NCBI RefSeq assembly: GCF_900105355.1
Contig: NZ_FNSC01000001.1
Location: 496,001-560,000, forward strand
Direction of reading: 5' to 3'
DNA length: 64,000 bases
Source of the DNA: Pseudomonas anguilliseptica
Lineage (GTDB): Bacteria > Pseudomonadota > Gammaproteobacteria > Pseudomonadales > Pseudomonadaceae
A model generated the notes under the pieces. It was given only the letters and a program-made list of their open reading frames with translations, was not told the DNA's origin and searched no databases. A program made the position numbers and the translations under genes. Of this stretch, positions 26,304 to 41,729 are shown in pieces (positions within the stretch are counted from its first letter, which is position 1; each line of letters opens with the position of its first letter).

Positions 26304-26695
26304 GGGGCCGATTAGGATTCGACGCCGGTAGCGAAGCTCTAGGTGCATGCCGACTTGGTAACAGAAGTCGTAAATCCACTGTTGCAACTTTCTATAGTTG
26401 CCAATGACGAAAACTACGAGGGCTACGCTCTCGCTGCGTAAGCGGCGCGACTAGTCCTTCTGGTAGCTTCGGCTCCAGCGATCACTAGGGGATGCCTGTA
26501 AACCTGAAGTGATTGTCATGCAGAACAGGATCGCCGCGTAGTACGTTGTGGACAAAGCGGCTAAAACTTACACAACTCGTCCAAAGCACCCTGCCCGTCG
26601 GGCGGCTGCGGATTAACTCAATAGACACGGCTAAGCATGTAGTACCGAAAGTGGAGAACTGGCGGACGGGGGTTCAAATCCCCCCGGCTCCACCA
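26304..26695 (+). ncRNA. ssrA: Transfer-messenger RNA
   Basis: About 392 nt with the canonical 5' end GGGGCCGATTAGGATTCGAC and 3' end GGTTCAAATCCCCCCGGCTC-CACCA, which pair as a tRNA(Ala)-like acceptor stem (GGGGCCG with CGGCTCC). The internal reading frame gives the tag ANDENYEGYALAA followed by TAA. It rescues stalled ribosomes and marks products for proteolysis. The tRNA-like 3' end is a frequent integration site for islands, and accessory genes start about 400 bp beyond it. Confidence 0.97.
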
Positions 26696-26731: not shown

Positions 26732-27068
26732 GTGCCTGAAATCCAGTTTAAACCGGGCGTTCAGTGCCATTGACGCCGACATACGTCAATTGACGGACAC
26801 GCCTTTTACATTCCCCCTGACTCAACCGCCTGACGAATCCTGAGGGCGATCGGGTGATGAAGAAACCTGGTAGCATTGTAGACGACTGGTCTATTTTGAA
26901 ATATATTGCAGCCCACAGGTGAACTCAGACCAGCATCTGGCCTAGCAAACCAGCGCACAAAGCCCCATAGCGCAAACTCCTAGCACGCCACGGCGCACTG
27001 AACTTCTAACGCCACGCACATTACGCCGCGCGCTCACGGTAACCCCGCGCGAGACTTCGCAGAAAAAA
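26732..27068. other. Gene-free regulatory stretch before the dehydrogenase operon
   Basis: No gene is supported. It contains the upstream NemR-like site at 26879-26893. The second copy of that site lies immediately before the dehydrogenase start, so this stretch probably holds the operon's promoter and looping or second-promoter region. Confidence 0.5.
26879..26893. promoter_or_regulatory. NemR-like operator site A
   Basis: TAGACGACTGGTCTA: 5-bp arms TAGAC/GTCTA around a 5-bp spacer. It is identical to the site at 27069 and is the exact reverse complement of the site upstream of the TetR gene (40858). It lies 204 bp upstream of the dehydrogenase start. Confidence 0.7.
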
Positions 27069-27083
27069 TAGACGACTGGTCTA
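27069..27083. promoter_or_regulatory. NemR-like operator site B
   Basis: TAGACGACTGGTCTA, 14 bp upstream of the alcohol dehydrogenase ATG, where a bound repressor would block initiation. AAGGA of the ribosome-binding site follows directly. Confidence 0.75.
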
Positions 27084-27097
27084 TTAAGGATAGATAC

Positions 27098-28251
27098 ATG
27101 TTTAACTTCGATTTTTACAACCCGACCCGTATTGTCTTTGGCCGCGACACCATCGGCCGTCTGGATGATTTAGTGCCGGCTGACGCGCGTGTGTTGCTGC
27201 TTTACGGCGGCCAGAGTGCCGAGAAAACCGGCACCCTGGCGCAAGTGCGCGAAGCGCTTGGTGCCCGGCACGTGCAGGCGTTCGGCGGTATCGAGCCGAA
27301 CCCCAGCTATGAAACATTGATGCAGGCCGTAGCGTTGGTCAGTGAGCAGCGCGTGGACTTCCTGCTCGCGGTGGGCGGCGGCTCGGTGATTGATGGCACC
27401 AAGTTCGTGGCTGCTGCGGTTGGCTATGCCGGCGATGCCTGGGACATCCTCGAAACCCGCGGCGCCAAGATCCGCCACGCCCTGCCGTTCGGTAGCGTAC
27501 TGACGCTGCCTGCCACCGGCTCGGAAATGAACCACAGCGGCGTGGTCACGCGCCGGGCAACGCAAGCAAAACTGCCGTTTCGCAGTGCTCATGTGTTCCC
27601 GCAATTTTCAATTCTCGACCCGACCAAGACCCAGACCCTCCCCGTTCGCCAGCTGGCAAACGGCGTGGTCGATGCGTTCGTGCATGTCATGGAGCAGTAC
27701 CTGACCTACCCGATCGATGCCCGCGTGCAGGACCGCTTCGCCGAAGGGCTGCTGCAAACCCTGATCGAAATCGGCCCGCTGATGCTGGAGGAATCCGCCG
27801 ACTACAGCACCCGCGCCAACCTTATGTGGACGGCCACTTTGGCGCTCAATGGGCTGATCGGCGCGGGCGTACCGCAGGACTGGTCCACTCACATGATCGG
27901 CCATGAGCTAACCGCGCTGCACGGCATCGATCACGCACGCTGGCCATCGTGCTGCCCGCGAACCTGGAAGTTCGTCGTGAAGCCAAGCGCGCCAAGTTGC
28001 TGCAATACGCCGAGCGGGTTTGGCAGATCCGCCAGGGCGACGAAGAACAGCGGATTGACGCCGCCACCCAACAGACCCGGACGTTCTTCGAGAGCCTCGG
28101 CCTACCGACGCGCTTATCGGCCTACCAGCTTGGTGCTGACGCCATCGCTGCGCTGATCAACCAGCTCGCCGCTCACCGCCTAACCGCACTCGGCGAACAC
28201 AGCGACGTCAACTTAGACGTCAGCCGCCGGGTGCTTGAGGCGAGCCTCTAA
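27098..28251 (+). pseudogene. Iron-containing alcohol dehydrogenase, frameshifted
   Basis: Matches YqhD/BDH-type group III alcohol dehydrogenases: N-terminal FDFYNPTRIVFGRDTIGRLDDLVP, NAD(P) motif VGGGSVIDGTKFVAAA, and iron ligands in DAFVHVMEQY and HMIGHELTALHGIDHAR. YqhD-like enzymes reduce toxic aldehydes with NADPH. Around 27932-27940 the frame shifts: instead of HARTLAIVLPANLEVRR, frame 1 gives HARWPSCC. A 4-nt loss in an ACGC repeat (CACGCACGCACGC to CACGCACGC) restores a 385-residue protein. The C-terminal quarter reads on in another frame to 28251. Two operator sites lie upstream; the PfpI and reductase genes follow. Confidence 0.88.
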
Positions 28252-28333
28252 GCCGCGCCGCTAGCGCTACACACCCACGCTAGCGGCACATGAACAAACA
28301 GCCACCAGCACTTTTAACCGCAAGGTAAACCAC

Positions 28334-29011
28334 ATGAAAATCCTCCTCGTTCTGACTTCCCACGAGCAACTTGGCGACACGGGTGAGAAGACCGGTTTCT
28401 GGCTCGAAGAGCTCGCCGCGCCTTACTACGCCTTTCTCGACGCCGGCGCGCAACTGACCCTGGCATCGCCCAACGGCGGCCAGCCACCGCTTGACCCAAA
28501 GAGCAACGAGCCTGACTTCCAGACCGACGCCACCCGCCGTTTCGAGGCCGATTCAGTTGCCACGCACGCGCTGGCCAATACGCTAAAGCTGAGCGACATA
28601 AATAGCGCCGAGTTTGATGCCGTGTTCTACCCCGGCGGCCATGGCCCGCTGTGGGACCTGGCCGAAGATGCCGCATCCATCGCCTTGCTCGAGCACGCCA
28701 TCGCCGCTGGCAAGCCGGTCGCGGCGGTGTGCCATGCGCCTGCGGTGCTGCGCCACGTCAAGGGCAGCGATGGCCAGCCATTGGTCGCTGGCAAAGCGGT
28801 CACCGGCTTCAGCAACAGCGAGGAAGAGGCTGTGGGCCTGACTCAGGTGGTGCCGTTCCTGGTCGAGGACATGCTCATGGCCCAGGGCGGCCACTACAGC
28901 AGGACCGCCGACTGGCAGGTGCATGTCGTCACCGACGGGTTGCTGATCACGGGCCAGAACCCGGCCTCCTCCGAAGCTACCGCCCACGCGCTGCTAAAAC
29001 TGCTGGCCTAA
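28334..29011 (+). CDS. DJ-1/PfpI superfamily protein, Hsp31/glyoxalase III-like
   Basis: A 225-residue protein of the type 1 glutamine amidotransferase-like group. It shows LTSHEQLGDTGEKTGFWLEELAAPYYAFLDAG at the start, FYPGGHGPLWDLAED, and the nucleophile elbow AAVCHAPAVLRHV with the catalytic Cys. Relatives convert methylglyoxal or act as chaperones under electrophile stress. It lies between the dehydrogenase and Old Yellow Enzyme genes and probably shares their operator sites, which fits detoxification. Start chosen by AAGG upstream and the family N-terminus. Confidence 0.88.
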   Translation: MKILLVLTSHEQLGDTGEKTGFWLEELAAPYYAFLDAGAQLTLASPNGGQPPLDPKSNEPDFQTDATRRFEADSVATHALANTLKLSDINSAEFDAVFYPGGHGPLWDLAEDAASIALLEHAIAAGKPVAAVCHAPAVLRHVKGSDGQPLVAGKAVTGFSNSEEEAVGLTQVVPFLVEDMLMAQGGHYSRTADWQVHVVTDGLLITGQNPASSEATAHALLKLLA

Positions 29012-29101
29012 GGCCGGCGTCACGCCTCTGCCGACGTCGGCAGAGGTGCACTTTTTGCCCGTGGCCGCTAGGTGGCCGTGGGTATCACCAGGAGAGCAAA
29101 A

Positions 29102-30226
29102 ATGGATACAAGTCGTTTTTTTCAGTCGGTACAACTCGGCCCTTACGTGCTCAACAACCGCATCGTCCTGCCGCCCCTGACGCGCTCGCGCAGCACCCAG
29201 CCGGGAAACATCGCCAACCCGCTGATGGCCACCTATTACCGGCAACGTGCCGGCGCAGGCTTTATGGTCACCGAAGGCACGCAGATCGAACCCCGCGGCC
29301 AGGGCTATGCCTGGACGCCGGGCATTCACAGCCAGGCGCAAATCGACGGTTGGCGCAACGTCACCGATGCCGTGCATGCCGCCGGCAGCATCATTTTCGC
29401 CCAGCTCTGGCACGTCGGTCGGGTTTCGCACACCTCGCTACAGCCCGATGGCGCAGAGCCGGTAGCGCCTTCGGCTATTGCCGCAACCAACGTAAAGGTG
29501 TTCATCGAAACAGGCCCAGGTACCGGCGCCTTGGCCGAACCTTCAGCGCCCCGTGCCCTGAGCAATGTCGAAGTCAAAGAACTGGTGCAGCTGTACGCGC
29601 AGGCCGCGCGTAACGCACTGAGTGCGGGCTTTGATGGCGTGGAAATCCACTGCGCCAACGGCTATTTGGTCAATCAGTTCATCTCTGCGCATAGCAACCA
29701 GCGCGACGATGAATATGGCGGTTCGCTGCACAACCGTTTGCGCTTCCTGCGCGAGATTGTCCAGGCCGTAGCCGAGGTTGTCGGTGCCGACCGTTTGGGC
29801 GTGCGCTTCGCGCCGTTGTTTGAAAGCACGGCCGAGGACCGGGTCTATTTGGGCCTGGTTGAAGAGGATCCGCACAGCACCTACATCGAGGCCATCAAGG
29901 TGCTCGAAGAAGCGGGTATCGCCTACCTGTCGATCGCCGAGGCCGACTGGGACAACGCCCCGGACCTTCCCGAAGACTTCCGCCGCGAGGTTCGCCAGGC
30001 CTTTAGCGGCCGCATCATCTACGCCGGCCGCTACACCGCACAACGCGGGGCGCAAACCCTGGAGGCAGGCTTGGGTGACATGATCGCTTTTGGCCGTCCG
30101 TTCATTGCCAACCCGGATTTGCCGCAACGCATTGCCAATGGTTGGCCGCTCAACCCGGTCGACCCAAGCAGCATGTACGGCGGCACGGAGAAGGGTTATA
30201 GCGACTACCCCACCTACACCGAATAA
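29102..30226 (+). CDS. nemA: Old Yellow Enzyme family alkene reductase (NemA-like)
   Basis: A 374-residue FMN enzyme: RFFQSVQLGPYVLNNRIVLPPLTRSRS at the N-terminus, the substrate-binding H-x-x-N pair in GVEIHCANGYLVNQF, DEYGGSLHNRLRF, and the FMN-phosphate motif GRPFIANPDLPQR. It reduces the C=C bond of N-ethylmaleimide, enones and quinones with NADPH. The start at 29102 follows CAGGAGAG. Known nemA genes are controlled by NemR; here a NemR-like regulator gene lies 11 kb away, with its sites in front of this operon. Confidence 0.9.
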   Translation: MDTSRFFQSVQLGPYVLNNRIVLPPLTRSRSTQPGNIANPLMATYYRQRAGAGFMVTEGTQIEPRGQGYAWTPGIHSQAQIDGWRNVTDAVHAAGSIIFAQLWHVGRVSHTSLQPDGAEPVAPSAIAATNVKVFIETGPGTGALAEPSAPRALSNVEVKELVQLYAQAARNALSAGFDGVEIHCANGYLVNQFISAHSNQRDDEYGGSLHNRLRFLREIVQAVAEVVGADRLGVRFAPLFESTAEDRVYLGLVEEDPHSTYIEAIKVLEEAGIAYLSIAEADWDNAPDLPEDFRREVRQAFSGRIIYAGRYTAQRGAQTLEAGLGDMIAFGRPFIANPDLPQRIANGWPLNPVDPSSMYGGTEKGYSDYPTYTE

Positions 30227-30237
30227 ACCCGCCACAG

Positions 30238-30272
30238 CGGCCGTCACGGTTTAACCCTGACGGCCGTCTTCT
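30238..30272 (+). terminator. Terminator after the reductase operon
   Basis: CGGCCGTCA (30238-30246) and TGACGGCCG (30258-30266) form a perfect 9-bp stem with an 11-nt loop, followed by TCTTCT. It probably ends the adh-pfpI-nemA transcript. Confidence 0.65.
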
Positions 30273-30414
30273 GATGACGCCGTCATGCAGCATCTGGATA
30301 ATTGCACCCTTCTCGCGGCGATACGCCTGATCGTTACCCAAGCCCCCGCCTACACGTCCACACTCAAGCGCTGCGCAGAGCAATAACCCGGCAGAGCATT
30401 AAGGACTTCTCAAC

Positions 30415-31014
30415 ATGACAGAACTGCAGAGCAACCCGGACTGTATTGGCCTGGTACTGGCCGCCGGCTACGGGCAACGCTTCGGCAGCGACAAACGCCG
30501 CGCCCAGCTGGCAGACGGCAACAGCTTGCTGCGCGCGACAGTGCTGCGTGCGCAAGAAGCCTTCAGCGATGTTCGCGTCGTGCTAAAAGCCGAGGACGAT
30601 GCCCAGGCCCTGGCTATTCCACCCGGCGTTCAGCTGGTACGTGCGGCCCACGCCAAACAGGGCATGGGCTCAAGCCTGGCTGCCGGCATCCAGAGCCTGG
30701 CACACTCGCAGGCCACTGCGGTGGCGGTGCTGCTTGGAGATATGCCGTGGATTTCTGTCGCCACCCTGCGGCAACTGCGAGCGCAGGCCCACGCTGACCA
30801 TATCGTCGTGGCTTACTGCGAGGGCCAGCGCGGCCACCAGGTGCTGTTCGGCCGGTGCTTCTGGCCGGAGCTGATGCAACTGCAGGGCGAGAATGGGGCC
30901 AAGGGCTTGATCGCCAGCCATGCGCAACAGGTGATTGCCGTGACGCTCGATGACCACGGCATTCTGCGGGACGTCGACAGGCCGGCCGACCTCAGCCACC
31001 CACCGACTTCATAA
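30415..31014 (+). CDS. mocA: Molybdenum cofactor cytidylyltransferase-like nucleotidyltransferase (MocA type)
   Basis: A 199-residue nucleotidyltransferase with the signature LVLAAGYGQRFGSDKRRA (residues about 13-30), GMGSSLAAGI, and VLLGDMPWIS. MocA joins CTP to molybdopterin to give the cytosine dinucleotide cofactor used by bacterial xanthine-oxidase-type enzymes. The molybdenum hydroxylase genes at 35973-38633 need exactly this cofactor. The 3' end overlaps moaA on the opposite strand by 23 bp. A MobA (GTP-specific) role is possible but the context favours MocA. Confidence 0.82.
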   Translation: MTELQSNPDCIGLVLAAGYGQRFGSDKRRAQLADGNSLLRATVLRAQEAFSDVRVVLKAEDDAQALAIPPGVQLVRAAHAKQGMGSSLAAGIQSLAHSQATAVAVLLGDMPWISVATLRQLRAQAHADHIVVAYCEGQRGHQVLFGRCFWPELMQLQGENGAKGLIASHAQQVIAVTLDDHGILRDVDRPADLSHPPTS

Positions 31015-31960
31015 TCAGGGCGCTGCCGGTAAACGTAGCGTCCTGCTTGTCCGCAAGCGCACGGCCGAGCAACCCGGTCAGCTGCGGCTGCACCTGCTCA
31101 GTCGGCAGATCCAACAGCGCGCCCATAAAGTGCCCGCGATTGGATGACAGGCATCCATATAACCAGCCCGTAGACGACAGGCGCAGACGGCTGCAACTCC
31201 GGCAAAAGGGCGCGCTTTCGTTGGCAATGATGCCGAACGCCCCGCGCTCGCCAACGCTATAACGCAGCGCGGTGGAGTCTACCGGCGCCTCAGCCTGGGT
31301 GAAGGCATAGCGCTGGCCGATAAGCTCCAGCAGCTCGCGCTGGCCGACGAACTGGGTACGAAAAGCCTCTGCATTCTGGGCCAGATGGCCCATGCGCATA
31401 AGTTCGATAAAGCGCAATTCGTAGCCCTGCTGAAGGCAGAACGCCAACATGGGCAAAACTTGATCGAGGTTGCTACCACGCATCGGCACCATGTTGATCT
31501 TGATGCTCATGCCGGCTCGGCGCGCCTGCTCGATGGCGCTGAGCACCGTCTGCAGGTCGCCGCCCTTGGCGATCGTGCGGAAGGCACTCGGGTCGAGCGT
31601 ATCAAGGGACACATTGAGCCGCTGGATGCCGGCGCTGCGCAATAACGGCAGTTTGCCGGCCAGCAACTGGCCATTGGTGGTCAGGCTAATGTCCTGCAAC
31701 GCCAGCTTACCTATGCCCTGCAGAAAGGGCTCCAGCCGGTCACTCAGCAGCGGCTCGCCGCCGGTAATGCGCAGTTCCTCAACCCCGGCAACATCCCTGA
31801 GCAACTCGACGGCACGCAGCATCGACGCGGACGTCAGCTCATCGCGTGCGGCCACCAAGCGACGGCCATCGGCCACACAGTAGGTGCAGGCGTAATTGCA
31901 GGCCGCGGTGAGGCTCAGGCGCAGTTTGCGAAAACGTCGACCATGTCGATCGACGATCAC
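30992..31960 (-). CDS. moaA: GTP 3',8-cyclase, molybdenum cofactor biosynthesis
   Basis: A 322-residue radical SAM enzyme. The N-terminal cluster is CNYACTYC (C-x3-C-x2-C), followed by ITGGEPLLSDRLEPFL; the C-terminal cluster cysteines lie in PFCRSCSRLRLSSTGWLYGC. It begins molybdopterin synthesis from GTP with MoaC. It overlaps the ABM-domain gene by 4 nt upstream, so it is the last gene of the hydroxylase operon. It is probably an extra copy serving that operon, since moaA is usually elsewhere. Length and motifs are normal. Confidence 0.92.
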   Translation of the reverse strand: MIVDRHGRRFRKLRLSLTAACNYACTYCVADGRRLVAARDELTSASMLRAVELLRDVAGVEELRITGGEPLLSDRLEPFLQGIGKLALQDISLTTNGQLLAGKLPLLRSAGIQRLNVSLDTLDPSAFRTIAKGGDLQTVLSAIEQARRAGMSIKINMVPMRGSNLDQVLPMLAFCLQQGYELRFIELMRMGHLAQNAEAFRTQFVGQRELLELIGQRYAFTQAEAPVDSTALRYSVGERGAFGIIANESAPFCRSCSRLRLSSTGWLYGCLSSNRGHFMGALLDLPTEQVQPQLTGLLGRALADKQDATFTGSALIMKSVGG

Positions 31961-32295
31961 CCGACAACGCCCGCGTGGGCATCAGTGGTGGCTTCGATGT
32001 CCTCCGCCAGCGCTTCAAGCACATAAACCTGACGATCGCTCAGCAGCTCGCCAAGGGCATTGGCCATGGCCGTGTAATGCGGCATCTGCCGATGAAGCGC
32101 TATCGCCTCGTGGCTGGCCCAGCGCTCGACGAAGACAAACCGCCCAGCCTGCTCAATACAGCGATTCAGGACGTAAGCCAGGCAACCGTCTTCGCCGCGC
32201 GAGGGCTGCACGCAAGCTCGCAGAATCTGCTCGACCTGCTGCTCTTTGCCGGCTTTGGCGGTCAGTACCGCGACAACGCGTATGGCTTGATTCAT
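31957..32295 (-). CDS. Antibiotic biosynthesis monooxygenase (ABM) domain protein
   Basis: A 112-residue ferredoxin-like-fold protein of the ABM/putative quinol monooxygenase type: RVVAVLTAKAGKEQQVEQILRACVQPSRGEDGCLAYVLNR, then FVFVERWASHEAIALHRQMPHYTAM. Small ABM proteins act as cofactor-free monooxygenases on quinols or bind small aromatics. It lies between xdhC (28 nt) and moaA (4-nt overlap) in the molybdenum operon. The substrate is not known. Confidence 0.85.
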   Translation of the reverse strand: MNQAIRVVAVLTAKAGKEQQVEQILRACVQPSRGEDGCLAYVLNRCIEQAGRFVFVERWASHEAIALHRQMPHYTAMANALGELLSDRQVYVLEALAEDIEATTDAHAGVVG

Positions 32296-32323
32296 GCGGA
32301 TGGGTTCCTCGGTTGATCAGTCG

Positions 32324-33532
32324 TCAGCGCTGCACGGCGAACTGCCGAAAAGCTTCTGTAGTAACAGCGGTTGCGGCCTGGCCAGCGATCAGCACAGGGT
32401 CGCTGTCATGGATGCTCGCGGCGCGCAAACGCAGGCTGCCGCCATGGCGGCCGTTGAGCACTGCCTGAATTTCCGCCAGCACCGCCATGGCCACGCTTTC
32501 CGGGGTGTCGCCGCCCAGGTCCAGGCCGATCGGATAATGCAAACATGCCAGCCCCGGCAGCTCGTCCTGCGGTTTAGCCAATTGTTCGTGGATGCCGGCC
32601 AACAAGCGCTCGGTACGCTCACGCGGGCCTAGCTGGCCGACATAGCAGGGTTCACTGTGCAACACGCCCTGTAGCCAATGCGCGTCTTGCACCAGGCTGT
32701 GGGTCATCACCGCTACCGCAGCCCCGCGCACCAGCTCGTGGTAAGCGAAAGGCTGCTCGACGTCGCCGACCAGTATCTGGTCAGCCTCGGCAAAGCGCTC
32801 GGCTCGGGCAAAGTGCGCCCGGCCGTCGATCACCGTCACATGCCAACCCAACAGCTTGGCCATGCGCACCAGCGGCTGGGCATCATGGCCCGCGCCGAAG
32901 ATCACCAGACGCCGCACCGGCGGCAGGTACTCCAGAAGCACTTCCACTTCGCCGAGACCATTCGGGTAGAGACCACGGGATGACTTGCCGCGCAGCAAGG
33001 TCTTCTGCAGGTCGGCGCTGATTTGCTCAACCAGCACCGAGCGCAGCAACTCGCCCGCGGCCTCCTGCCCAGGCATCAAGCACAAACGCTCGCCTAAGCG
33101 TGGCGCAGCCGCGCCCGAGCTGGCGATTACCGTGGCGATGGCCGCAGGCTGCTGGCGGTCGCGCACGCTGAGCAAAGCATCGACCAAGGCGCAAGGGCCG
33201 GCCGGCAGGCGCTCGAACAGCACGTGAACCTTGCCGTTACAGCCCAGGCCGAAGCTCAGCGCTTCCTCGCTGGCGTCATCCGCCTCTGCGGTGCTGTAGC
33301 TGCGCAGCGCCGGCCCGGCTTCGGTCAGCCACCAGGCCTTTTTCGCCACTTCCGCCTCCAGGCAGCCACCACTGATGGTGCCCTCGGGCCGGCCGAAGCG
33401 CGACACCAGCATGCGCGCACCGGGCCGCCGATACGCAGAGCCCTCGACCTTGACCACAGTCGCAAGCACCGCTTCGCGGCCAGCCTCGCGCTCGGCCAGG
33501 AGCGCATCCAGCAATGTGTTCAGGCCCGACAT
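32324..33532 (-). CDS. xdhC: XdhC/CoxI family maturation factor
   Basis: A 402-residue protein with an N-terminal XdhC_CoxI domain (EAVLATVVKVEGSAYRRPGARMLV, EGTISGGCLEAEVAKKAW) and a C-terminal Rossmann XdhC_C domain (RRLVIFGAGHDAQPLVRMAKLLGWHVTVIDGR). XdhC binds and inserts the sulfurated molybdenum cofactor into xanthine-dehydrogenase-like enzymes. The start at 33532 has GGAGG 7 nt upstream; it lies 13 nt after the cytochrome gene. It looks intact although the enzyme it serves is broken. Confidence 0.9.
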   Translation of the reverse strand: MSGLNTLLDALLAEREAGREAVLATVVKVEGSAYRRPGARMLVSRFGRPEGTISGGCLEAEVAKKAWWLTEAGPALRSYSTAEADDASEEALSFGLGCNGKVHVLFERLPAGPCALVDALLSVRDRQQPAAIATVIASSGAAAPRLGERLCLMPGQEAAGELLRSVLVEQISADLQKTLLRGKSSRGLYPNGLGEVEVLLEYLPPVRRLVIFGAGHDAQPLVRMAKLLGWHVTVIDGRAHFARAERFAEADQILVGDVEQPFAYHELVRGAAVAVMTHSLVQDAHWLQGVLHSEPCYVGQLGPRERTERLLAGIHEQLAKPQDELPGLACLHYPIGLDLGGDTPESVAMAVLAEIQAVLNGRHGGSLRLRAASIHDSDPVLIAGQAATAVTTEAFRQFAVQR

Positions 33533-34415
33533 GCGGCACCTCCGCTCAATGCAGGGACTCGGTCCGGCGCTTAGCCACAGCTGGCACCGATACCTGCGCA
33601 CCACTGTCGCCAAAGCGCTGCAACATAAAGCTGCTCAGCGCGGCCAGCTCTTGGTCGTTGTAAATGGTACCGAACGACGGCATAAGCCGATCCACAGGGG
33701 CGTCGGCAGCACCGTGCCCACTCAACAAGATGCCGAGCAAGTTGCTGGCGGCCGGGTCGTTGACCGTCTTCAAGCCCAGCAGCATGGCCGTCTGGCTCTG
33801 GTTGCCCGTGCCGTCCCAGCGGTGGCAACTGGCGCAGGCTTCGGCGAACAGCTTGTTGCCGAGTGCATTGCCGCTGCCCGGCTCAGCAAGCGTGACCTGC
33901 TGCGGGCGAGGCACGCCTTCACTGCGCGGCGGCGAGTCCTTGAGGAACACCGCAATCGCCTGACGGTCAGCGTCGGTCAGGTGGCGCAAGCTGTTTTCCA
34001 CCACCTCTGCCATGGGCCCCGAAGACAAACCCAGGCCTGGCGCTGCGCCATCCTTCAAATAGCCGGCAAGCACGTCCGTGGGCCAGGCACCAATGCCGTG
34101 CACGGGGTCGGCACTGATGTTGTAGGCGTTCCAACCCTGAAGCAGGTTACCGGCCAGCGAGCGGTCGCTGCTGACTGCCTGAAACAGGTTGCGCGGTGAG
34201 TGGCATTCGCCGCAGTGACCCGGCCCTTCGACGAGGTATTTGCCGCGATTCCACTCCGCAGAGCGCTGGCTGTCCGCCTGAAATGGCTCATCGTTAAGGA
34301 ACAGCAGATTCCAGAGAACCATGCCCCAGCGCTGATTAAACGGGAAGCCGATTTGGTTTTCGCGCGGTGCTTGCTCGACTGGCTCCAGGCTGTCGAGGTA
34401 ACCCTTGATCGCTAG

Positions 34416-35607
34416 GGAAACCCTGAAGAAGACTTCCTGAATTTGGCAAAATACCTGAACTCCACCCGCCGAGTTTTCCGATGAAGCAGATGACCTTCGC
34501 CGACGCCGAGTACGCCGGCAAGCGCAAGCAAACCCGCAAAGAGCTGTTCCTGATCGAGATGGATCAGGTTGTGCCGTGGAAGGGTTTGATTGCCTTGATC
34601 GAACCGCATTACCCCAAGGGTGAAGGCGGACGTCCAGCCTATCCGCTGATGGCGATGTTACGGGTTCATTTGATGCAGAACTGGTTCGGCTACAGCGACC
34701 CGGCGATGGAGGAGGCTCTGTACGAGACCACCATCCTGCGCCAGTTTGCGGGTCTGAGCCTGGAGCGCATTCCCGACGAAACCACCATCCTCAACTTCCG
34801 CCGATTGCTGGAGAAACACGAACTGGCTGCGGGCATCTTGGCCGTCATCAATGGCTATTTGGGTGACCGCGGTTTGTCATTGCGCCAAGGCACCATCGTC
34901 GATGCCACGCTGATCAATGCGCCGAGTTCGACCAAGAACAAGGACGGTAAGCGTGACCCGGAAATGCACCAGACCAAGAAGGGAAACCAGTATTACTTCG
35001 GCATGAAGGCGCACATCGGCGTCGATGACGAGTCGGGTTTAGTGCATAGCGTGGTCGGCACGGCAGCCAATGTTGCAGACGTTACTCAGGTCGACAAGCT
35101 GCTACACGGCAAAGAAAACATGGTGGGTGCCGACGCGGGTTACACCGGCGTAGAGAAGCGGCCAGAACATGAAGGCCGTGAAGTGATCTGGCAGATCGCA
35201 GCCCGCCGCAGTACGTACAACACGTTGAGTAAGCGCAGCGCGCTGTACAAAGCCAAGCGCAAGATCGAGAAGGCCAAGGCGCAAGTTCGCGCCAAGGTCG
35301 AGCACCCGTTCCGGGTGATCAAGCGTCAGTTCGGTTATGTGAAGACGCGTTTCCGTGGCCTGGCCAAAAACACCGCACAACTGGTAACGCTGTTCGCCCT
35401 GTCGAACCTGTGGATGGCCCGTCGACATTTGCTGACGAATGCAGGAGAGGTGCGCCTGTAATGTGGGAAATGACCGCTGCGAGGTGCTCGCGGCGGCCAG
35501 AAACACCGAAATGAGCGGATGACTTGATCGTTTTTGATCAGTTTTCCGCTTTCAAAATCAGCGGAGGCTGAAGTTGACCGGAAATACAGGGCTACTTCAG
35601 ACCATCC
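34416..35607 (+). mobile_element. IS5-type insertion sequence, copy 2 (inside cytochrome c gene)
   Basis: 1192 bp with the same ends as copy 1 and a CTAG target duplication (34412-34415 and 35608-35611). It is inserted in the cytochrome gene in the opposite orientation. It differs from copy 1 only at nine clustered synonymous positions (equivalent to 11963-12068). Confidence 0.96.
34481..35461 (+). CDS. IS5 family transposase (copy 2)
   Basis: A 326-residue DDE transposase, identical in amino-acid sequence to the copy at 11199-12179, with catalytic residues in VDATLIN, GADAGYTG and the HPFRVIKRQFGY block. The gene is intact. It is antisense to the cytochrome gene it interrupts. Confidence 0.95.
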   Translation: MKQMTFADAEYAGKRKQTRKELFLIEMDQVVPWKGLIALIEPHYPKGEGGRPAYPLMAMLRVHLMQNWFGYSDPAMEEALYETTILRQFAGLSLERIPDETTILNFRRLLEKHELAAGILAVINGYLGDRGLSLRQGTIVDATLINAPSSTKNKDGKRDPEMHQTKKGNQYYFGMKAHIGVDDESGLVHSVVGTAANVADVTQVDKLLHGKENMVGADAGYTGVEKRPEHEGREVIWQIAARRSTYNTLSKRSALYKAKRKIEKAKAQVRAKVEHPFRVIKRQFGYVKTRFRGLAKNTAQLVTLFALSNLWMARRHLLTNAGEVRL

Positions 35608-35972
35608 CTAGAATGTCATCGCGCGACATCTTGCTGTAGGAGGTATAGGGAAACGCCGGGTAGTAGTGCTTGCCATCACGGCCCACACCGGCCTGCAGCG
35701 CACTGACGAACTCGTCATCGGTCCACGCACCGATGCCGGTTTGCGTGTCAGGGGTAATGTTGGGCGAAAACAGCGAGCCGAACGGCAGCTTGAACTCAAC
35801 ACCACCGGCGAAGGGTTGACCGCCGGACACGGTATGGCAAGCCACGCAGTTGGCGGCGCGCGTGAGGTATTCGCCCTTAGCCAGCGAGTAGTCCTGAGCA
35901 TAGGCCGCTTGCGCCAGCAGAGCAGCACTGGCGAGCAGCAGTAGGTTGCTTATTAATTTCATCAGGTGCTCC

Positions 35973-38170
35973 TTAAACCGGGTAGTAGCCGAAACGGCTC
36001 AGCGGCAAGCGACGAATGCGCTGGCCCGATGCGGCGAACAGGGCGTTGACCAGGGCCGGACCGATCAACGCAGTACCGGCCTCGCCAACGCCACCCGGCG
36101 CTTCCAGACTCGGCAGCAGGTGCACCTCCACCGCCGGCGCTTCGCTGATACGCAGCTGCCTATAGTTGTGGAAGTTGGTCTGCTGCACCTGGCCGTTTTC
36201 GATGAGGATTTCGTTGAACAGCGAGGCGGACAGGCCGAACAGCGTGCCGCCCTCGATCTGCGCCTTAACCGAGGTCGGGTTAGTCGCAAAGCCGCAATCC
36301 ACCACACTGACCAGGCGCTTGATGCGTATGCCCAAGTCGCCCTGCATCTCCAGTTCAACCAGGGTCGCCACATAGCTGCCGAACACCGCACTGACCGCCA
36401 CCCCACGGCCCTGCCCTGCGGGCAACGGCTTATTCCAGTCAGTCTTTTCGGCCAGCAAACGCAGCACCGCCTGGGCACGTGGCTGCTCCGCCATCAGCTC
36501 CATGCGGTAGGCAACCGGGTCGGCCTTGGCGTTGTGCGCCAGCTCATCAATAAAACACTCCAGGGCATAGGTGCCACGCAGCGGGCCCACGCCGCGCCAC
36601 CAGGACACGGGCACAACGCTCGGCTCCCGGCGGATATAACGAACCTGCAAATGCGCCAGGCTGTAGATGGGCTCTACCGCCACTTCCACGGCATCGGCAT
36701 CGGCATCCACGCCATTGGGTGGCAAGCTGCCGACATAACGGGCGAGAATCGAGGCGCCGGCGATGCGGTGCTCCCAACCCAGCGGCCGTCCCTGCTCGTC
36801 GAGGGCGGCCTGCATACGGTCGGCGTAAAGCGGCCGGTAAAGGTCGTGGGTCATGTCCTCCTCACGGCTCCAGATCAGCTTGATCGGGTAAGCAACCAGG
36901 CGTGCGATGGCCACCGCCTGGGTGATGAAATCAAACTCCAGACGCCGACCGAATGCGCCACCGACCAGCTGGTTGTGCACCTGGATTTTTTCCACGGGCA
37001 ACCCGGTGACTTGGGCCGCCGTCTGCTGGGCGAACACCGGCACTTGGGTGCCGACCCACAGCTCGCAGGCATCTTTACGCACATGGGCCACGCAGCTCAT
37101 GGGCTCAAGCGGTGAATGGGACAACAGCGCCTGCTCGTAAACCGCCTCGTACTGGCTGGCCGATTGCTGCTTGGCTTGTTCAATGTCGCCAGTGCGCTTA
37201 GCGACCACGCCATCACGGCTACTGGCCGCGAGCAGCTCCTGGTCCAACTGCGCTGAACCAATCGCGGCATGTGGGCCGAGGTCCCACTCGTTTTCAGCGC
37301 CCTGATGGCCTGCTGACAGGCCCAGAAGTTGCTCGCGGTGACGGCCACGGCATTGTCCAGGCGCACGATGTCGCGCACCCCAGGCCCCCGTCGCGCCGCA
37401 GTATCATCAACGTTGAGCAGCAGCCCGCCATACACCGGACAGGTGATACTGGAGGCCACCAGCATGCCGGGGATTTGCAGGTCGATGGTAAAGCGCGCCT
37501 TGCCGTTGACCTTCGCGGGCGTATCCAGGCGCTGCGCGGGGGTGCCCAGTAACTTGAACTGCTCGGGGGTTTTCAGTGGCACTGCGTCGGGCAATGGCAG
37601 CGTCGCAGCCGCCTCGACCAAGTCGCCATAGCCCGCCTGCAGGCCATTGGGGCCAAACACCTGGCCGTTCTGCGCATGGCACAGGCTCGGCGCGACGCGC
37701 CATTGCAGAGCAGCCGCCTGGATCAACAGGATCCGCGCCGTAGCGCCCGCCCGACGCAGCGGCTCCCAGGTAACACGAGTAGAAGTCGAACCACCGGTGG
37801 CCTGAAACTGCATCAGGCTGTCGGTATACAGCGCCGAGTTCGGTGGCGCTTCCTGGATCACCACCTGATCCAGGGGCACTTCCAGCTCCTCGGCGACCAT
37901 CATGGCAATACCGGTTTGCGCACCCTGGCCCATTTCAATTTTCGGCGAGATCACCGTGACCACGCCATCGGGGCCCACCCGCACAAAGGCACCGTAACCC
38001 TCAGCTGAGCGATCACCAAGCCGACCTGTCGCCGCCGCCTCGGCGGCTGCGCTTTTAGACACCAACGGCGGTAGCCAGGTACTCAACACCAAGCCGCCGA
38101 GGGCGATACCGCTGCCCTGCAAGAGGCGGCGACGGGACATATCAACAGTCATTTCGTTAGTCTTTTTCAT
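35973..38170 (-). pseudogene. Molybdopterin-binding hydroxylase subunit (IorB-like), frameshifted
   Basis: An isoquinoline/aldehyde oxidoreductase beta-subunit type protein. The N-terminus has a twin-arginine signal (SRRRLLQGSGIALGGLVLS), then cofactor-binding repeats (IEMGQGAQTGIAMMVAEEL; GGAFGRRLEFDFI; PVSWWRGVG). At about 37288-37291 one base is missing: the frame leaves ...QQAIRALKT, while the expected EWDLGPHAAIGSAQLDQELL is in the next frame. Adding 1 nt gives 733 codons (732 residues), normal for the family. The enzyme would hydroxylate aldehydes or N-heterocycles using MCD cofactor. A sequencing error cannot be excluded. Confidence 0.88.
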
Positions 38171-38171
38171 C

Positions 38172-38633
38172 TCACGCCTCCTCTACACGGCCAACACTGT
38201 GAATGGCCGTGCGAATCCGGGTGTAGGTGGCGCAGCGGCACAGATTGCCCGCCATGGCGGCATCAATCGCCTGGTCGTCAGGCTTCGGCTGGCTCTGCAG
38301 CAGCGCCGTGGCGGCCATGATCTGCCCTGATTGGCAGTAACCGCATTGCACCACCTCATGCGCCAGCCAGGCCTGCTGCACGGCTTGGCCCACGGCCGTC
38401 TCGCCGATGGCCTCAATGGTGGTGATCGAACGCCCCGCTACAGCGGAAATCGGCGTCACGCATGAACGTATCGGCTGGCCATCGAGGTGCACGGTGCACA
38501 CGCCGCACTGGGCAATGCCACAGCCATATTTGGTTCCGGTCAGGCCCAGTACATCGCGCAGGACCCATAGCAGAGGCATATCGGGGGCAACGTCAACCTG
38601 CTGCGACTGTCCGTTGATGATTAACGTTTGCAT
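38172..38633 (-). CDS. 2Fe-2S subunit of molybdenum hydroxylase (IorA-like)
   Basis: A 153-residue protein with two 2Fe-2S clusters: the plant-type set CGIAQCGVC...C (about residues 40-62) and the CO-dehydrogenase-type set CGYCQSG...CRC (about 100-137). It passes electrons from the molybdenum centre to the cytochrome. The start at 38633 has AGAGGA upstream. It lies 1 nt before the molybdopterin subunit gene and is the first gene of the minus-strand operon. It has no signal peptide and would be exported with its Tat-targeted partner. Confidence 0.9.
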
Positions 38634-38732
38634 GTTATTTCCTCTGCCTAAAGTGTTAATGCCGACAACCTTGGTTATCGCTTTGATCATGTGGGTGCGC
38701 TACGTGACGCAGACTAAAACAGCTTCATGCCC

Positions 38733-38975
38733 TCACGAATTAATCCGCCTTAAACGGGCAACCAGCCACCCGGCCAGTGGGAAGGAGATAAGCTGGGTGA
38801 CAGGCACCAATACCAGCACTTCCACCAATACCATTAGCGGAAAACTCAAATCACGGGTCAGCGGGGCCAACACACTCAGCACCAATAAGAGTGTTGGGTA
38901 TAACCCCAGACAGCCCACCACTACACGCCAGAACATGGCGTTTATTTGATGCGAGCGCTTGCTGGGTGTATGCAT
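38733..38975 (-). CDS. DUF2798-type small membrane protein
   Basis: An 80-residue protein with two hydrophobic segments (FWRVVVGCLGLYPTLLLVLSVLAPL and FPLMVLVEVLVLVPVTQLISFPLAGWLVARL), the form of DUF2798 proteins. The start at 38975 is preceded by AGAG; a start at 38993 would add six residues. It lies between the hydroxylase operon and the CurA-like gene, on the same strand, about 100 bp from each. Function unknown. Confidence 0.7.
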   Translation of the reverse strand: MHTPSKRSHQINAMFWRVVVGCLGLYPTLLLVLSVLAPLTRDLSFPLMVLVEVLVLVPVTQLISFPLAGWLVARLRRINS

Positions 38976-39023
38976 AAAAATCTCTGCAGGCATTGCCTGT
39001 AACTTAGCGGCCTGGATCTTTTA

Positions 39024-39062
39024 AATAAAAAAACCCTGCCAGCAAGGAGCTTGAGCTGGCAG
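39024..39062 (-). terminator. Terminator of the CurA-like gene
   Basis: CTGCCAGC (39036-39043) and GCTGGCAG (39055-39062) form an 8-bp stem with an 11-nt loop; on the minus strand it is followed by GGTTTTTTTATTT. It lies 34 nt past the gene's stop. Confidence 0.88.
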
Positions 39063-39095
39063 AGCACGAACCATGGTCATTCCAACGCCAGACAA

Positions 39096-40130
39096 TCAGT
39101 CGTGACCGACGCGAACCACCAACTTGCCAAAATTACGGCCCTCGAGAAGCCCGATAAAGGCCATAGGCGCCTCTTCCAAGCCGCTCACTAATTCCTCGCG
39201 ATACTTGATCTGACCCTGTGCAAACCAGCTCGACATCTCGTTAAAGAATTCGTCGTAGCGGTGCGCGTGATCATCAAAAATAATAAAACCCTGCACATGA
39301 ATGCGCTTACGCAGAATGGCGCCCATCAAAGACGGCAAGCGATCTGGCCCGCTGGGTAAGGCGGTGTCGTTGTAGTGCGCGACGATGCCGCAGACCGGCA
39401 CCCGCGCCTTGGTATTGAGCAGCGGCAGCACCGCCTCGAAGACCTTGCCACCGACATTCTCGAAGTAGACATCGATACCCGCCGGGCAGGCCTTGGCCAG
39501 TTGCTCGGCGAAGTCCGGCGCACGGTGATCGAGGCAGGCATCAAAGCCCAGCACCTCGACGGCATACCGGCACTTTTCCGCGCCGCCGGCGACGCCGACC
39601 ACATGGCAGCCCTTGATTTTGCCGATCTGCCCGACAGTCGCGCCGACCGGCCCGGTAGCAGCCGCCACCACCAGTGTTTCGCCCGCCTGCGGCCGGCCAA
39701 TATCGAGCAAGCCCATATACGCGGTGAAGCCCGGCATACCAAAGATGCCCAAGGCATAAGAGGGCTGTGCCGGCGACTCGCCCAGCGCGGTCAGGTCACT
39801 GCCATCGGACAACGCATAGTCCTGCCAGCCAGCAAAGGACAGCACCCAGTCACCGACCTTGTAGGCCGGGTTTTTCGAAGCCTCCACACGGCATACAGTG
39901 CCACCCACCATCACCCCGCCGATTTCCACCGGCGGCGCATAGGACGGCGCATCACTCATGCGGCCGCGCATGTAAGGGTCGAGCGACAGGTAGACGGTAC
40001 GCAGCAGCACCTGCCCTTCTGCAGGCTCAGGAATAGGGCTTTGCTCAATGCGGAAATTCGCCTCGACAGGCGCACCGTGCGGGCGCGAGGCCAGAACAAC
40101 GCGTCGATTGATTTGCTTTGACTGGGGCAT
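39096..40130 (-). CDS. curA: NADPH-dependent alkenal/curcumin reductase-like MDR enzyme
   Basis: A 344-residue zinc-independent medium-chain reductase of the CurA/leukotriene B4 dehydrogenase type: VYLSLDPYMRGRMSD near the N-terminus, the NADP motif VVAAATGPVGATVGQIGKIKGCHVVGVAG, and DVYFENVGGKVFEAVLPLLN. These enzymes reduce the C=C of enones and 2-alkenals. The start at 40130 has AGGAG 7 nt upstream. A NemR-like site lies 52 bp upstream, which fits electrophile detoxification. Confidence 0.88.
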   Translation of the reverse strand: MPQSKQINRRVVLASRPHGAPVEANFRIEQSPIPEPAEGQVLLRTVYLSLDPYMRGRMSDAPSYAPPVEIGGVMVGGTVCRVEASKNPAYKVGDWVLSFAGWQDYALSDGSDLTALGESPAQPSYALGIFGMPGFTAYMGLLDIGRPQAGETLVVAAATGPVGATVGQIGKIKGCHVVGVAGGAEKCRYAVEVLGFDACLDHRAPDFAEQLAKACPAGIDVYFENVGGKVFEAVLPLLNTKARVPVCGIVAHYNDTALPSGPDRLPSLMGAILRKRIHVQGFIIFDDHAHRYDEFFNEMSSWFAQGQIKYREELVSGLEEAPMAFIGLLEGRNFGKLVVRVGHD

Positions 40131-40182
40131 ATGCAAACTCCTGGCTGATGTTGAAGAAATGGTTGTCTCGGAGCAGATGAAT

Positions 40183-40197
40183 TAGACCAGTCGGCTA
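40183..40197. promoter_or_regulatory. NemR-like operator site C
   Basis: TAGACCAGTCGGCTA differs at one base from site D. It lies between the TetR gene and the CurA-like gene, 52 bp upstream of the latter's start. Confidence 0.7.
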
Positions 40198-40242
40198 TTA
40201 AGCCGATAAAAAAAGCCCACCAACTGTTGGGCAGTCTCGCCA

Positions 40243-40836
40243 CTAGGTGTTGTCAGAGGCCAACATGGTCTGGGTCGTGTCCATGGCGTTTTCCAGCGAC
40301 CGACTATTACGGTGCAGCTTGCTCAGCAGGCTGGCGCCGAGCCACAGCTGATAAAGGGCCGTCGCCGTGCGGTAAGCATCGCCTGGCGGCAGGGAACCGT
40401 CTTGCTGGCCCTGCGCAATGCAGTCAGCGATCCGCACAATGATTTGATCGGCGCCATCGCGCAGCGTGAGGCGCATGGACTCAGAGAGATCCGCCACCTC
40501 AGCGCTCAGCTTCACCACCAGGCACTTCTGCTCATCGCAGGGCTCGCAGTAGCTGTCCAGCCACTTCTGCCAATAGCCCATCAGCCGTTCGCGGGCCGTG
40601 TTGCCCGTGACGGCGAAGCGCTCGTCCATGTTCGCCAGATAAGTGCGAAAGTAATCCTCGAGCAAGGACTGGCCGTACTGCTCTTTGGATTTGAAGTAAT
40701 GGTAGAACGAGCCTTTCGGCACGCTGGCGGCCTGCAAAATCTCGTTAAGGCCCACACCTGTGAAGCCCTTCACCACCATCATGCGGTGGCCGGTGTCGAG
40801 TAAATGCTGGCGCGTGTCATCGTAGTTTTGCTTCAT
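40243..40836 (-). CDS. nemR: NemR-like TetR family repressor
   Basis: A 197-residue TetR regulator. The HTH is at about residues 25-50 (GFTGVGLNEILQAASVPKGSFYHYFKSKE). The ligand part contains CLVVKLSAEVADLSESMR, close to NemR of E. coli, where the cysteine at the equivalent place (here C105) senses reactive electrophiles and bleach. Two further cysteines (C97, C100) are near. The gene stands between the CurA-like and GST genes, with an operator-like site 21 bp upstream of its start, suggesting autoregulation. The symbol is a family-level assignment. Confidence 0.82.
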   Translation of the reverse strand: MKQNYDDTRQHLLDTGHRMMVVKGFTGVGLNEILQAASVPKGSFYHYFKSKEQYGQSLLEDYFRTYLANMDERFAVTGNTARERLMGYWQKWLDSYCEPCDEQKCLVVKLSAEVADLSESMRLTLRDGADQIIVRIADCIAQGQQDGSLPPGDAYRTATALYQLWLGASLLSKLHRNSRSLENAMDTTQTMLASDNT

Positions 40837-40857
40837 CGGGGCAGGCTACCAATAAAT

Positions 40858-40872
40858 TAGACCAGTCGTCTA
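40858..40872. promoter_or_regulatory. NemR-like operator site D
   Basis: TAGACCAGTCGTCTA, with perfect 5-bp arms, 21 bp upstream of the regulator's ATG in the divergent nemR/gst region. Confidence 0.75.
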
Positions 40873-41002
40873 TTTTGAATATCAACGCTCTACTATACCA
40901 ACACTCCACCTCGGCCACCCAGGCCAAACCGCAATGCAACCCGCCGACAGCAGAGGCTACTCCGCAAAAAAGCGCTACGCTTCGAGCATACCCTTTCAAT
41001 AG

Positions 41003-41017
41003 TAGACCAGTTGACTA
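41003..41017. promoter_or_regulatory. NemR-like operator site E
   Basis: TAGACCAGTTGACTA differs from site D at two positions. It is 91 bp upstream of the glutathione S-transferase start. Confidence 0.6.
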
Positions 41018-41108
41018 CTGGGCGCGTAGCATCCATCTAGAACACGCCAATTACCAATCACACATCAGCGCGCCATATGCACGATGCGCCCCAAACGGAG
41101 CCACACCG

Positions 41109-41729
41109 ATGATCAAACTTCACCACCTGAATGCCTCACGCTCAATTCGCATCCTCTGGCTACTGGAGGAAATCGGTGAGCCCTATGAGCTCATCAAGTA
41201 CACGCGCGATGCAAAAACCCACTTGGCCCCCGCTTCACTAAAGGCCATCCATCCGCTCGGCAAATCGCCGGTGATTGAACTAGACGGGCAGGTTATTGCC
41301 GAGTCTGGCGCGATGGTGGAAGTGCTGATTAAGCGCCTGGCGCCTCACTTGGCACCTGCTGAAGGTTCAGCTGCATACATTGATTACCTGACGTGGATTC
41401 ACTTTGCAGAAAGCTCTGCCATGCTGCCTTTTCTACTGAAAATATTTAATCAGTATGAAACCCAGTCAGGCACCGACCTGAAGTTTCTAAACGCCTACGC
41501 GGAGACTGAATTCAACAAGGTGTTTGCCCATATCAACAACCACCTTGAAGGTCGGAACTTTCTGGTAGAAGAGCGCCTGACCGGCGCGGACTTTATGCTG
41601 GGCTTCGTCGTGCAGGAGGCACTGAATAACCTAAAAGGCGCACAGGCCTTCCCGCACATCGAACGCTATATCCGTAACCTGGAAAGCATCAGCAGCTACC
41701 AGCGCGCCCTGGCAAAAGAGCAAAACTGA
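41109..41729 (+). CDS. Glutathione S-transferase
   Basis: A 206-residue GST. The N-terminal thioredoxin-like half has HHLNASRSIRILWLLEEIGEPYELI and the glutathione-binding PLGKSPVIELDGQVIAESGAMVE (the ES motif). The helical C-terminal half has LTGADFMLGFVVQEA. It conjugates glutathione to electrophiles. It is divergent from the NemR-like gene, with operator-like sites between. Codons before 41109 have no GST similarity. No strong ribosome-binding site is seen. Confidence 0.9.
   Translation: MIKLHHLNASRSIRILWLLEEIGEPYELIKYTRDAKTHLAPASLKAIHPLGKSPVIELDGQVIAESGAMVEVLIKRLAPHLAPAEGSAAYIDYLTWIHFAESSAMLPFLLKIFNQYETQSGTDLKFLNAYAETEFNKVFAHINNHLEGRNFLVEERLTGADFMLGFVVQEALNNLKGAQAFPHIERYIRNLESISSYQRALAKEQN

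Follow-up and report, generated by a model that had tools for sequence, protein, structure and literature searches.

The NemR–nemA–gloA system of Escherichia coli and the CurR–curA pair (PA2196–PA2197) of Pseudomonas aeruginosa are the closest described counterparts of a predicted multi-unit regulon in Pseudomonas anguilliseptica, which we analyse here in a 64,000-nucleotide stretch of contig NZ_FNSC01000001.1 (RefSeq assembly GCF_900105355.1, positions 496,001 to 560,000 of the forward strand; hereafter the window). In a review, Cys106–Lys175 is given as the hypochlorite switch of NemR, and Cys21 and Cys116 are assigned to its electrophile response (PMC7464077). For P. aeruginosa CurR, sensing of hypochlorite and N-ethylmaleimide is stated in the title of a 2024 paper (Duang-Nkern et al., Gene 927:148754; cited in PMC12838394 and PMC12239554), and a literature search that had most subscription journals outside its reach found no paper on a multi-unit CurR regulon. 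By analogy with these systems, five 15-bp sites in the window are very probably operators of a locally encoded CurR that would control itself and a set of detoxification genes and would be released by oxidants or electrophiles.

The initial annotation had reported five sites at 26879, 27069, 40183, 40858 and 41003 of the window, two identical, one their reverse complement and two with one or two changes, and a re-scan reproduced them exactly. Their consensus is TAGACCAGTCGTCTA, with half-sites TAGAC and GTCTA, and they lie among the regulator and target genes as follows:

26879..26893, + strand: box 1, TAGACGACTGGTCTA, 190 bp before box 2 and 204 bp before the yqhD ATG.
27069..27083, + strand: box 2, same sequence as box 1; the yqhD ATG follows after 14 bp.
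27098..28252, + strand: yqhD-like iron alcohol dehydrogenase (Pfam PF00465, PF25137).
28334..29011, + strand: pfpI, DJ-1/PfpI family protein (Pfam PF01965).
29102..30226, + strand: oye, NemA-like old yellow enzyme (Pfam PF00724); ATG at 29102, mechanical open reading frame (ORF) from 29072.
39096..40130, − strand: curA, NADPH-dependent curcumin reductase family (NF058644, 607.5 bits, cutoff 440); ATG at 40130, mechanical ORF from 40136.
40183..40197, + strand: box 3, TAGACCAGTCGGCTA, one change from consensus, 52 bp before curA.
40243..40836, − strand: curR, TetR-family repressor of 197 aa (NCBIfam NF058643, 376.2 bits, cutoff 300).
40858..40872, + strand: box 4, TAGACCAGTCGTCTA, exact reverse complement of boxes 1 and 2, 21 bp before curR.
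41003..41017, + strand: box 5, TAGACCAGTTGACTA, 91 bp before gst.
41109..41729, + strand: gst, glutathione S-transferase (Pfam PF02798, PF00043); ATG at 41109, mechanical ORF from 40875.

The earlier claim that each site lies upstream of a detoxification gene or of the TetR gene holds for yqhD, curA, curR and gst, but the gst box is the weakest and oye has no site of its own in the window, so that oye would depend on the yqhD promoter. It is the close matches and their clustering that stand out, not the frequency of the motif. No other place in the window comes within three mismatches of the consensus, and the eight strand-wise matches at this tolerance compare with a mean of 0.50 in shuffled windows (0 of 100 shuffles reach eight). 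Across the 5.23-Mb genome, all four places with zero or one mismatch fall inside the window (reversed control pattern, one place; about 0.29 predicted per genome from base composition alone), as do all three exact copies of TAGAC-N5-GTCTA and 5 of its 18 one-mismatch places.

The regulator and its neighbour curA both score above curated cutoffs, and in this side-by-side arrangement they resemble the P. aeruginosa pair, from which the window differs in that its boxes also head gst and, 13 kb away, yqhD–pfpI–oye. The closest solved structures to the TetR protein are PDB 3rd3 and 4l62 (E about 1e-96 and 1e-95), which we take to be PA2196, and the E. coli NemR structure 4yze matches at E 3.7e-45; a search of a defence library returned no match for CurR. 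Likeness to the E. coli system consists of a shared TetR branch, equivalents of Cys106 and Lys175, the half-sites TAGAC and GTCTA, and a NemA-like enzyme among the presumed targets. Unlike E. coli nemA, which directly follows nemR, oye of the window (29102–30226) is 10 kb from the regulator (40243–40836), no gloA was seen among the genes examined, and NemR Cys21 and Cys116 have no counterpart in CurR. The boxes differ as well: before nemR of E. coli K-12 (L191 1494–1509) stands the 16-bp sequence TAGACC-N4-GGTCTA, presumably the NemR box, whose half-sites are the same but one base further apart than in the 15-bp boxes of the window, and the alignment makes the recognition helices of NemR and CurR nearly alike, which would mean that boxes of two lengths are read by nearly the same helix. 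CurR would thus work like NemR, whose Cys106/Lys175 pair it possesses, but it lacks the other three of the four NemR-specific features checked. When E. coli NemR was searched in 274 genomes of the class, three matches were obtained at E 1e-40: that of the window itself and two more, both with 15-bp boxes. A further likeness is to AltR of Pantoea ananatis, described as a NemR-related, self-repressing TetR protein with a key cysteine that controls cluster stress genes through inverted repeats; its box differs (CAATCTAC-N6-GTAGATTG), and it answers to thiosulfinates, not N-ethylmaleimide (PMC13178969).

The predicted operators are conserved together with their genes. From a species collection, the best 80 of at least 574 confirmed relatives were named as loci and 79 were used (L092 lies on the same contig as L090 and was dropped), with representatives from Pseudomonas, Microbulbifer, Shewanella, Vibrio, Photobacterium, Oceanimonas, Rouxiella, Thauera, Zoogloea and others. 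A site with at most two mismatches occurs in 77 of the 79 loci. With the six window proteins as queries for assigning sites to genes, all 176 sites (72 exact, 85 with one mismatch and 19 with two) could be assigned to curR, pfpI, oye, yqhD, curA or gst, each site lying no more than 350 bp upstream of the gene start or 25 bp within the gene; until uncertain start codons were allowed for, 21 of these sites had no assigned gene, and every one of the 21 was next to the start of an oye gene. Counted by gene, curR has a site immediately upstream in 74 loci, pfpI in 29, oye in 29, yqhD in 23 and curA in 18, and the position of box 4 relative to curR is the same in most curR loci. Since yqhD, pfpI and oye lie within 4.5 kb of curR in 27, 44 and 42 of the 79 loci, respectively (curA, 27; gst, 14), the distant genes of the window are neighbours of curR elsewhere. 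In L192, whose CurR is 94% identical, the gene order of the window is kept, boxes 1–4 are within one mismatch, and boxes 1 and 2 are spaced by 191 bp.

Presence of the site also follows presence of the regulator across the genus. The survey covered 59 genomes drawn from a larger group, with the regulator counted at 45% identity or more, a line that was set after seeing the list, at the gap between 45% and 34%. A site with zero or one mismatch was found in 24 of 24 genomes with the regulator (one of which, G049, has an in-frame TAG) and 1 of 35 without it, although the associated Fisher p of 1.2e-15 is too small and overstates the case, given the relatedness of the genomes and a count that takes in the box of the regulator itself. 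The reversed control pattern occurred in 19 genomes and had no link to the regulator (p 0.40). The idea of a NemR-type electrophile regulon, put forward in the initial annotation, gains support from this co-occurrence and from the 176 placements; the regulator itself belongs to the CurR branch (NF058643) and is not a strict NemR. We conclude that the regulon is real, conserved and of a known kind, and that its extent and its scatter over several transcription units are new. A repressor–reductase pair thereby becomes a testable multi-unit regulon with a precise box, and a plain motif scan would suffice to predict its targets in further genomes.

To examine oye genes, we took the 30 best matches that have loci and counted those at least 67% identical as close. 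A site lies within 1.5 kb upstream of a close oye in 15 of 18 genomes with the regulator (within 75 bp in 10) and in 0 of 5 without it; less similar oye genes have a site in 0 of 7 cases, one of the seven being in a regulator genome. The window departs from this rule with boxes 1 and 2 about 2 kb upstream, at the head of yqhD–pfpI–oye, and G032 does so with oye further downstream of yqhD–pfpI. An oye with its own site, although remote from the regulator, occurs in G019, G020, G034 and G055; that of G034 reads in two frames. We regard this as a clear case of regulon cohesion despite gene scatter. A one-mismatch box was also observed just before a second oye (41–43% identical) in L113 (19359) and L114 (17661), 7–9 kb from curR.

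Besides the inflated p value, several observations weigh against assigning all five boxes to a CurR regulon. The loose pattern TAGAC-N5-GTCTA with at most two mismatches is no commoner in the window than in shuffles (12 versus a mean of 9.5; 26 of 100 shuffles reach 12), so it is the full box sequence that carries the evidence. In the genome scan at up to two mismatches suggested in the initial annotation, the consensus occurs at 8 places, 5 of them the boxes, against 11 for the reversed pattern, so matches with two mismatches mean little, and what stands of that scan is that all places with zero or one mismatch lie in the window. Box 5 has two changes from consensus, and a site just upstream of gst was found in only 1 of the 79 loci; because the matching gst-side place has three to four mismatches in five relatives looked at (three in L072, on the same contig as L192), box 5 is the least certain of the five. 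L081 and L120 are without any site, G051 has a site but no regulator at 45% identity or more, and G014 is a true exception to the oye rule, with a close oye and no site within 1.5 kb. A promoter-like match at 26879–26907 overlaps box 1 but is not significant (one found, mean of 0.5 in shuffles), and the promoter pattern scan gave no such match around boxes 3–5. Finally, the yqhD frame is broken near 27940, with the C-terminal part of the family continuing in another frame.

The two-mismatch genome count, no higher than that of its reversed control, is also what would be expected if the repeats were chance matches or a dispersed repeat with no regulatory role. Their conservation before the same genes, both within the genus and across genera, speaks against this, and the co-occurrence and site placement described above refute it for practical purposes, leaving it a negligible probability. 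The three other two-mismatch places in the genome were rejected as further regulon members because they look like chance: two fall within mechanical ORFs (537 aa; 150 and 128 aa) and the third between a GAPDH-like gene and a DDE transposase.

The broken yqhD bears on a narrower interpretation, in which CurR would control only itself, curA and gst, while boxes 1 and 2 would be relics of a lost private CurR-like paralog beside yqhD and have little effect today. Such a paralog (48% identical, tblastn) is found in G032 (L156 4913–7535), flanked by two boxes and immediately upstream of yqhD (86%) and pfpI (82%); the same genome encodes CurR as well, at 88%. We consider this interpretation unlikely, because boxes 1 and 2 are letter-perfect both in the window and in L192, where yqhD is intact and the 191 bp separating the boxes contain no paralog, because a perfect box identical to that of curR should be bound by CurR, and because a search of the window stretch revealed no trace of the paralog. 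No deletion scar was found between boxes 1 and 2: the G032 paralog had no tblastn match, and blastn of the sequence upstream of box 2 against L156 returned the box and short, chance-level matches only. That a second regulator once lay between boxes 1 and 2 is a possibility raised by gene order alone. In G032, paralog and CurR may share targets.

Whether the repressor senses reactive compounds was approached through an alignment of 80 sequences, the 79 named loci and the window. Cys105 and Lys173, equivalent to NemR Cys106 and Lys175, are invariant (80 of 80); Cys97 occurs in 21, Cys100 in 42 and Cys139 in 76 of the sequences, and a cysteine at NemR position 21 or 116 in none of the 80. The NemR cysteine block ascribed to the TetR protein in the initial annotation is therefore only partly present: of the six NemR cysteines listed in the review, CurR of the window has 98 and 106, together with Lys175, and lacks 21, 116, 149 and 153. 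By analogy with a relative, a chemistry of electrophile or oxidant sensing is plausible for the family. An alternative is that the repressor binds a small organic ligand, as AcuR binds acrylate, with no sensing role for the cysteine and a regulon that is catabolic instead of stress-related. AcuR (NCBIfam NF051457) is indeed the second-best NCBIfam match, loci of roughly 30%-identical homologs carry related boxes with another core, TAGACGATCGGTCTA, and a linked molybdenum hydroxylase would fit catabolism. However, the AcuR score of 115.9 bits is well under the equivalog cutoff of 247 whereas the CurR score exceeds its own, the Cys105–Lys173 pair is invariant, and the title of the 2024 CurR paper gives hypochlorite and N-ethylmaleimide; ligand binding of the AcuR type thus appears highly improbable.

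We retain CurR as a predicted stress-responsive repressor. The model proposed for it builds on directly observed sites, gene families, co-occurrence and conserved residues, and borrows binding, repression, inducer, chemistry and enzyme roles from P. aeruginosa CurR and E. coli NemR. In unstressed cells, a CurR dimer would occupy the boxes and hold down curR through box 4, curA through box 3, gst through box 5, perhaps with box 4, and yqhD–pfpI–oye, 13 kb off, through boxes 1 and 2. Oxidants or electrophiles would react with Cys105, and its conserved partner Lys173 points to the switch that has been proposed for Cys106–Lys175 of E. coli NemR; CurR would then leave the DNA. The enzymes would be induced until the agent is gone, with YqhD reducing aldehydes, CurA and OYE reducing enones, PfpI acting on glyoxal-type damage and GST conjugating electrophiles with glutathione.

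Family models and hairpins add detail to the target units. On yqhD of the window, PRK15138 scored 453 bits, under its cutoff of 645, and matched only up to residue 281, whereas yqhD is intact (385 aa) in L192 and L156; PRK10605 scored 389 bits on oye, just under its cutoff of 403. Two terminator-like hairpins lie in or beside the predicted units:

29023..29048, + strand: terminator-like hairpin separating pfpI from oye, with a T tract (4 such matches in the stretch, mean of 2.7 in shuffles).
40215..40232, − strand: terminator-like hairpin after curR (2 overlapping matches, mean of 0.7 in shuffles; weak fold, z −0.31).

The hairpin between pfpI and oye folds better than shuffles (z −2.70) and is partly retained in L192, and attenuation of oye is possible. 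Because a terminator-like hairpin follows curR, curA is probably its own transcription unit; a further hairpin downstream of curA (about 39034–39065), which has a T tract, shows an intermediate fold (z −1.51).

Between the two parts of the regulon lie MobA, MoaA, XdhC-like, cytochrome c and molybdenum hydroxylase genes and a transposase. The initial annotation had described a regulon spread around a molybdenum hydroxylase operon, which is correct as to location, but the molybdenum genes of the window have no site, and the stretch before the hydroxylase contains no place even with up to five mismatches. The large subunit is broken near 37290 in the window and is in one piece in L072, L073, L074, L192 and L197. 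In Pseudomonas segetis (L193 2930–2944, via L082), an exact box is located 193 bp upstream of the small-subunit ATG in a related two-subunit hydroxylase (small subunit 77% and large subunit 73–76% identical to those of the window), and the link between box and hydroxylase may therefore be functional in some species. A broader scenario, which we offer tentatively and hold to be somewhat doubtful as a whole, is that Gamma- and Betaproteobacteria share a modular regulon headed by CurR, with the same five enzyme families shuffled near to and far from the regulator while the near-invariant 15-bp box is kept; in the lineage of the window, yqhD–pfpI–oye would have lost a private CurR-like repressor and been taken over in trans by CurR through the shared box, and in P. 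segetis the box would also have come to stand before the molybdenum hydroxylase.

Other features of the region were recorded in passing. A DDE transposase (34481–35461) lies between the cytochrome c and molybdenum hydroxylase genes. A complete tmRNA gene (26304–26695) has its end 184 bp upstream of box 1; the corresponding position in L192, near 13900, shows only a tmRNA-like 3′ end, with no gene called by ARAGORN, and this difference may reflect an integration site. The window has three frame breaks, in yqhD (about 27940), in the large subunit of the molybdenum hydroxylase (about 37290) and in an FAD-linked oxidase whose two domains are split over overlapping ORFs (20591–20732), and these represent either gene decay or indel errors of the assembly. 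In the genome of the window, the next CurR paralogs share 34% identity, and their loci are free of the site. L039 and L040, 217 kb apart on contig 1 of G000 and each with a 34% CurR paralog, are near-identical loci, differing at 96 of 3564 positions in an unaligned comparison, a likeness hinting at a large chromosomal duplication.

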